Below are positions 11,335-28,915 of a DNA stretch of 47,929 nt, in pieces. Position 1 is the first letter of the stretch; every line of letters starts with the position of its first letter. The notes below the pieces were generated by a model. The model was given only the letters and a program-made list of their open reading frames with translations. It was not told where the DNA came from and ran no database searches. The DNA comes from Oscillospiraceae bacterium (GTDB lineage: Bacteria > Bacillota > Clostridia > Oscillospirales > Oscillospiraceae), in NCBI GenBank assembly GCA_017552325.1, contig JAFZQE010000075.1:1-47929 (forward strand), in the 5' to 3' direction. Position numbers and translations under genes: made by a program.

Positions 11335-11364
11335 AAAGCAGAGAGCAAGAGCTCTCTGCTTTTT
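11333..11364 (+). terminator. Intrinsic terminator of the ffh-rpsP-khpA operon
   Basis: A 14-bp perfect stem, AAAAAGCAGAGAGC / GCTCTCTGCTTTTT, with a 4-nt loop. It overlaps the khpA stop and ends in a T-run. Confidence 0.9.
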
Positions 11365-11368
11365 ATTA

Positions 11369-11536
11369 TCAAATGCAAAGGCTGCGCCTTTGCATTTGAG
11401 GGGCTACGCTTCGTTCGCGCACTCGCTGCGCTCGCACACTCTCTCCGCGCAAAGTGTGTTTTCCGCGGTACACGCCCCCGGAAAACACGGATTCTCAATT
11501 CTTTTTCACGCTGCGGCGCGAAAACTCTGCGAGGCT
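11369..11536 (+). ncRNA. Candidate structured RNA or structured repeat, element S copy A
   Basis: About 168 nt related to the reverse strand of 28739-28915. It starts with a 14-bp perfect hairpin (TCAAATGCAAAGGC, loop TGC), then TGAGG, a conserved GCACTCGC...GCTCGCACAC stretch, a second hairpin GTGTTTTCC / GGAAAACAC enclosing a 15-nt loop with GGTACACGCCCCC, a third hairpin with a TGCG loop (11503-11524), and the conserved end CTCTGCGAGGCT. The 118-nt core (11419-11536) matches copy B at roughly 80% by eye. Paired positions differ in a compensatory way between copies, which supports a folded molecule. The transcribed strand is unproven; the strand given is the one on which both copies lie 3' of a co-directional gene. 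Confidence 0.45.
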
Positions 11537-28668: not shown

Positions 28669-28702
28669 TCTTTATTTTCCCGCTCCGGTATGTTATGATA
28701 AA

Positions 28703-28722
28703 AGCCCGGATCGCTCCGGGCT
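28703..28722 (-). terminator. Intrinsic terminator of the three-gene small-protein operon
   Basis: On the minus strand, AGCCCGGA, loop GCGA, TCCGGGCT, then TTTATC. It lies after element S copy B, so the element would be inside the operon's 3' UTR. Confidence 0.75.
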
Positions 28723-28738
28723 TAACGGCTTGAAAAAC

Positions 28739-28915
28739 AGCCTCGCAGAGTTTTTCGCGTCGCAACGCGAAAAAAAATCATAATCTGTGTTTTGCGGGGG
28801 CGTGTACCTCGCAAAACACACTTTGCGCCCTGCCAGTGTGCGAGCGGAACGCGAGTGCATGCAGCAGGGCGAAATCCTCCTCACCGAAAAGCCCAGCGAA
28901 GCGGGTTTTCGGTGA
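28739..28915 (-). ncRNA. Candidate structured RNA or structured repeat, element S copy B
   Basis: About 177 nt, the reverse-strand relative of 11369-11536. On the minus strand: hairpin 1 TCACCGAAAA / TTTTCGGTGA (28915-28881; different sequence from copy A but same place), TGAGG, then a conserved GCACTCGC...GCTCGCACAC segment enclosed by an extra 8-bp stem CGCCCTGC / GCAGGGCG. Next come hairpin 2 GTGTTTTGC / GCAAAACAC with a 15-nt loop containing GGTACACGCCCCC, hairpin 3 TTTTTCGCGT-TGCG-ACGCGAAAAA, and the end CTCTGCGAGGCT. It follows the last gene of the small-protein operon and precedes its terminator. Confidence 0.45.

Follow-up and report, generated by a model that had tools for sequence, protein, structure and literature searches.

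Two copies of a structured repeat in the window

The window, the whole 47,929-nucleotide contig analyzed here, carries two copies of a repeat designated element S: copy A at 11369 to 11536 on the forward strand and copy B at 28739 to 28858 on the reverse strand. Both were found where the initial annotation had placed them, and the homology that it proposed is borne out by 83% BLAST identity over query positions 51 to 168 (E = 5e-28). The compensatory changes that it described in the hairpins are also real: the pairs read GTGTTTTCC/GGAAAACAC in copy A and GTGTTTTGC/GCAAAACAC in copy B.

The gene directly upstream of copy A, by eye that of a KH-domain protein, ends in an intrinsic terminator predicted from the sequence, a hairpin with a T-tract at 11338 to 11364 on the forward strand. 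Copy A had been correctly located as a single interval, but its first 31 nt (11369 to 11399) are a separate hairpin, HP0, which occupies the same position in other copies and forms the left end of the element, here with the terminal repeat eroded. Then follow, on the same strand, a degenerate P1/P2 region (11400 to 11445), the core hairpin P3 (11456 to 11488; 10-bp stem, loop CGGTACACGCCCC), which is the most widely shared part of the family, hairpin P4 (11503 to 11524), and a 13-nt tail, AACTCTGCGAGGC (11523 to 11535). All 24 aligned copies, which were selected for containing CTCTGCGAGGC, have an identical tail; it is missing from some others. What had been read as hairpin 1 of copy A, equal in strength and wholly different in sequence, is a helix present in many other copies, here in degenerate form. 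In copy B, on the reverse strand, HP0 with an eroded terminal repeat (28882 to 28914) is followed by a P1 helix (GCCCTGC/GCAGGGC) enclosing P2 (28827 to 28870), P3 (28787 to 28819), and P4 with the tail (28740 to 28774). A covariance model, R1, comprising P3, P4, and the tail, scores 96.3 bits on copy A (11446 to 11535) and 105.7 bits on copy B (28740 to 28829).

A terminator stem-loop lies directly to the right of copy B (28702 to 28723, reverse strand); a second one was looked for on its left and not found. Copy A adjoins the terminator of the upstream gene, and neither a duplicate of that terminator nor a recognizable terminal repeat was seen in it. Copies A and B are thus eroded, with no recognizable duplication, and appear to be ancient copies of a small mobile DNA element; the mechanism was read from their relatives. 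In fuller copies, the order from left to right is terminal repeat, HP0, P1 enclosing P2, P3 (10-bp stem and well-conserved loop, AGGYRCAYGYCCC), P4, the tail, and the right terminal repeat. In the aligned copies, P3 and P4 mostly have T on the 5' side and A on the 3' side. An intrinsic terminator has the opposite arrangement, so the inner hairpins might not stop transcription in either direction.

Distribution of element S

A BLAST search of the element's own genome (2.09 Mb, 83 contigs, 75% complete) with copy A returned 13 matches: copy A itself, copy B, ten more copies, and one opposite-strand match confined to the palindromic 5' hairpin of copy A. Since the last is that hairpin matching itself, the genome holds 12 dispersed copies. 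The element was found in 22 of 60 genomes, its own included, with 21 of the 37 genomes of the genus and one genome of another family among the carriers. The initial annotation had named a covariance search of Oscillospirales as the check on its claim, and further homologues are indeed there: R1 matches 65 of 394 sampled genomes of the order, in 30 of 169 genera, with at most 11 candidates scored per genome, so that copy numbers are lower bounds. In a sample of the class, 10 of 391 genomes have a match, four of them within the order. Named hosts include uncultured Oscillospiraceae, Papillibacter cinnamivorans DSM 12816, Pseudoflavonifractor, Oscillibacter, and Evtepia. The weaker matches displayed from the order's other families retain P3 and its loop, mostly without P4 and the tail; five of these (L264, L268, L276, L280, and L285) lie, by eye, between two copies of one hairpin and have the same kind of ends. 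Literature searches, judged on titles and the beginnings of abstracts, found no published account of element S in Oscillospirales.

A pattern scan gave 120 stretches, and the model was run on the 80 listed; a scan of viral contigs gave 3, with the element in two (L225 and L227). The model failed to match seven of the 83 pattern stretches. Two of them are cut at contig ends (L144 and L159), one looks like chance (L226), and one is from Paraburkholderia (L124). In L114 at 1772, L115 at 3458, and L173 at 3059 (reverse strand), a solitary hairpin is followed by AAACTCTGCGAGGC, with no P3; either these are remnants or the tail has an independent life. A phage search gave one partial match, over 60% of the query, on an unannotated fecal contig, and a plasmid search gave no match at an E value of 0.001.

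Some copies adjoin other repeats. In L002 and L007 (contigs C49 and C21 of the element's own genome), the left half is replaced by another repeat rich in GCGAGC/GAAGCGAG, which suggests recombination between repeat families. The element abuts other dispersed-looking repeats in L011 (genome G006; CCCCTCTGAACTCCCCCGTTCGCGCA twice) and L027 (genome G004; a TTGCGAGGC...GTGGCAATCCG palindrome).

Covariation in the stems

In the 24 aligned copies, 8 of 21 pairs changed on both sides, a number reached by 3 of 500 shuffles, and 34 cells changed on both sides, compared with 9.2 in shuffles (0 of 500); further pair types, at 14 against 12.0 in shuffles, were not unusual in number (79 of 500). In a model-fitted alignment of 91 matches (89 distinct), which takes in weak, truncated, and a few opposite-strand matches, both-sided changes affect 19 of 20 pairs and 321 cells, compared with 93.9 (0 of 500 shuffles), and the signal is gone when the partners are slid by 1 to 3 columns. 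P4 alone has 57 distinct stems, with Watson-Crick pairing in 492 of 507 pairs. Both-sided changes exceed shuffles in both alignments; the initial annotation had held that homologues without significant covariation would refute its claim. Pairs in the stems are exchanged for other Watson-Crick pairs, and G-U pairs are few.

Terminator stem-loops are duplicated around a third of the copies

For the analysis of flanks, we combined 72 of the 91 model matches (19 truncated, weak, or opposite-strand ones were left out), 36 copies from BLAST and genome surveys, and 22 of 24 copies from the order survey, to a total of 130 copies, 128 of them distinct and 118 with both flanks. The same locus-specific hairpin (score ≥15) stands on both flanks in 39 of the 118 copies, compared with 1 of 587 mismatched pairs of left and right flanks; no duplication is seen in the other 79, copies A and B among them. 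The duplicated repeat has a median length of 30 bp (21 to 42 bp; 39 copies), and the foot of the hairpin is at most 2 nt from the repeat start in 31 of the 39 and from the repeat end in 30. The duplicated hairpins differ in sequence among these copies, as with targeting of stem-loops without sequence preference. Upstream of the left hairpin copy, the mean is 4.0 A in 8 nt; downstream of the hairpin, it is 3.8 T in 8 nt for the right copy and 2.2 for the left, the pattern that cutting a terminator between A-tract and T-tract would leave. The unit between the duplications has a median length of 204 bp (176 to 264 bp). In a loose motif test of the 39 copies, 37 had a TGTC-type left end and 29 a GACA-type right end, compared with 19% and 22%, respectively, for shuffled letters.

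Counted per genome without a mismatched control, duplications occur in 20 of 40 fetched copies: 11 of 11 in G220, 4 of 5 in G147, 3 of 4 in G379, 2 of 4 in G331, 0 of 10 in G042, and 0 of 3 in G311. The 40 also include three copies of G268, which were not judged because the tail gave no anchor for them.

Related genomes provide sites without the element. At L015 of genome G023, the order is hairpin, element, hairpin; between apparently the same two genes, the sister species G019 has a single hairpin and no element (the match rests on 89% identity over 820 bases of one neighbor and, for the other neighbor, on inspection by eye). Near copy A, the sister genomes G019 and G023 are 95% identical over 484 neighboring bases. 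The gene upstream of copy A has a matching terminator in G019 and a related one in G023, with no element behind either. Because the upstream gene and terminator stand there without an element after them, copy A is probably an insertion in this lineage.

IS1182-type elements with the same ends and duplication

PF05598, an IS1182-type transposase domain, was found in 11 of 38 genomes examined. Within the genus, the association is weak: DUF772 was found in 8 of 21 genomes that carry the element and in 3 of 16 that lack it. We looked at 49 IS1182-type loci; among the 42 with both flanks, many of which are fragments or have other ends, four (L059, L229, L230, and L245) have a stem-loop duplication of 30 to 35 bp, perfect or nearly so, around a left end CAGNYTGTCRAA and a right end that is its complement. 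A fifth IS1182-family element, L043, has the same ends on both sides but stands between two different hairpins. NF033551 (IS1182) scores above its cut-off on the transposases of L043 and L059, the latter in a broken frame, and at the places of L229, L230, and L245.

The element and this transposase do not always occur together. NF033551 has no match in 18 of 27 element-bearing genomes, including the element's own genome, G147, and G379; G379 is 100% complete in 2 contigs, yet three of its four copies show the duplication. In G220, where copies look recent, the sole NF033551 match is short, has an internal stop, and lies beside a matching right end; from its sequence, it appears to be the remnant of a broken transposase. 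Either the transposase was lost after bursts, a common pattern, or another enzyme is at work.

An origin of element S as an internal deletion of a known IS was rejected. The P3/P4 core was not found in IS elements, where the best unfiltered hit (17.3 bits, E = 0.0028) falls largely within the flank of L051, and no IS1182 transposase was found with the element: 13 IS1182-type segments compared by tblastn with L061 to L227 (167 loci with flanks of limited length, 14 of them reverse-transcriptase loci) gave nothing at an E value of 1e-8.

A model for the movement of element S

Element S is a widespread family of nonautonomous elements that have IS1182-type ends, duplicate terminator stem-loops, and share a conserved structured core. 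It has the marks of a MITE: it is short and multicopy, no transposase gene was found in it, and it has terminal inverted repeats and a target-site duplication, although the repeats are eroded and the duplication is absent in copies A and B. We think it probable that element S is a MITE with IS1182-type ends that is moved in trans by an IS1182 transposase into terminator palindromes, with duplication of the stem-loop. What was observed are dispersed copies, duplicated stem-loops that end close to the hairpin feet, a site with a single hairpin and no element, and the same ends and duplication in IS1182-family elements of related species; that an IS1182 transposase moves the element, and with what strand-transfer geometry, we infer. 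Counting against this reading are the element-bearing genomes with no IS1182 transposase match, the weak association with DUF772, the failure to find the core in the IS elements, the two-thirds of copies that show no duplication, the small number of IS1182-type loci that have one, and the position of L043 between two different hairpins.

As proposed, an IS1182-family DDE transposase, supplied in trans, would recognize the short terminal inverted repeats, CAGNYTGTCRAA on the left and its complement on the right, and would insert the element at terminator palindromes that are probably extruded into cruciforms or hairpins. The element ends would be joined to the stem-loop at its two 5' feet; repair of the gaps would then copy the whole stem-loop onto both sides, the left copy without the T-tract and the right copy without the A-tract. 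Terminators in a large group of gut bacteria are thereby split and doubled, with a hairpin lacking the T-tract in front and one with the T-tract behind, and this could alter mRNA 3' ends. Stem-loop duplication is seen here repeatedly in nature, for insertion sequences and for a MITE.

Our guess is that the inner hairpins are kept as DNA palindromes (as a cis signal, by template-switch palindrome correction, or both), more likely than as RNA. There is some small chance that the P3 hairpin, with its loop AGGYRCAYGYCCC, is a cis handle for a separate enzyme or host factor that directs the element to terminators and allows amplification without an IS1182 transposase.

Other readings of the element

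The initial annotation had left the choice between a structured RNA and a transposable structured repeat. The second is supported by the duplicated terminators, by the ends shared with IS1182, by the site that is empty in a sister species, and by two close sisters that lack copy A; the first found no positive support. A structured noncoding RNA, trans-acting or in a 3' UTR, could ride on transposon ends with its fold under selection, which is compatible with a MITE. Strong covariation and a loop and tail conserved across many genera speak for it, and a split terminator, as deduced from the duplicated flanks, should put the element into the 3' UTR of the gene reading in. Palindromic DNA that moves can itself give rise to compensatory changes between its copies; such changes are no proof of an RNA gene, and searches for structured RNAs can be misled by them. 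Selection on RNA of a given strand is expected to raise G-U pairs above A-C mismatches; among distinct stems, the assumed strand has 62 G-U and 102 A-C. Terminators of the same loci, as a control, gave 83 G-U against 59 A-C, so the test has little power. The A-C excess points, if anything, to an RNA of the opposite strand, and we distrust it because the copies are related and the control is weak. Orientation to neighboring genes, taken as the longest open reading frames and not curated, is near random: of 34 duplication-bearing copies with callable genes, 17 have the left gene and 19 the right gene pointing toward the element; the corresponding counts are 45 and 40 among 73 other copies, and 62 and 59 among all 107. 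The Rfam check suggested by the initial annotation gave no match in the window at the gathering cut-off (Rfam 15); the best hit at a permissive threshold, 20.2 bits against a cut-off of 80, is at chance level. The G-U counts and the orientation favor a DNA-level reading without proving it; the element is probably not a new RNA gene, and an RNA role of the core is unlikely.

It is also quite improbable that the mover is an enzyme other than the IS1182 transposase, for example, a hairpin-directed recombinase or a reverse transcriptase, that recognizes P3, with the ends and the duplication convergent or borrowed. This would account for copies that look recent in genomes where no IS1182 transposase was detected and for P3 being, by eye, the part common to the weaker matches displayed from other families. 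Against it, IS1182 elements of the same bacterial family have the same terminal repeat and unusual duplication, and the loss of a transposase after a burst is common, with G220 keeping a broken remnant beside a matching right end. A retroelement or group II intron partner was rejected on RVT_1, which was found in 11 of 38 genomes, G000, G023, and G042 not among them, and a REP/RAYT system on PF01797 (Y1_Tnp), not found in the element's own genome (0 of 1), an absence that is not certain because the genome is only 75% complete. Immobile, vertically inherited repeats, terminator associated or REP-like, would explain why the element occupies the apparent tpiA-gpmI gap in both G000 and G019 (L008 and L012). 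The empty site and the stem-loop duplications contradict them; the absence of copy A from close sisters and the lack of a Y1_Tnp match in the element's own genome also speak against them, and we give this explanation almost no credence. Retention of the element in that gap of two species was noted with the genes assigned by eye.

Comparison with known elements

REP and BIME repeats are dispersed intergenic palindromes associated with Y1 (RAYT) transposases. Element S shares the dispersed intergenic palindromes; unlike them, it has terminal inverted repeats and long target duplications, and no Y1_Tnp was found in its own genome. The pneumococcal BOX, RUP, and SPRITE repeats, compared by description only, are likewise structured and intergenic, one of them terminator-like, in other hosts (PMC10969869, PMC3049150).

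IS1182-derived MITEs are described in Methanosarcina acetivorans as partners of ISMac2, 160 and 169 bp long (PMC3852290). Like element S, they are short, nonautonomous, and paired with an IS1182 element; unlike it, and compared by description only, they have direct repeats of 4 and 0 bp if the table columns of that source are length, copies, inverted repeat, and direct repeat.

IS1272 and TnSha1, of the IS1182 family in Staphylococcus, insert, in either orientation, into stem-loops without sequence preference, often terminators (PMC5678879, PMC4923244), and element S resembles them in the transposase family of its proposed partner, in its stem-loop or terminator target, and in inserting in either orientation. 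IS1272 is described as deleting or replacing the stem-loop, with no duplication in the new insertions reported, whereas copies of element S and the four IS elements have the stem-loop on both sides. Stem-loop duplication was drawn for IS1272 in 2017 as a hypothetical pathway b at terminator hairpins (PMC5678879), and the insertions of element S look like this pathway as it is presented there. A tandem duplication of the left end has been reported for IS1272 (PMC5678879); at L059 (2600 to 2850), the right end is tandemly duplicated.
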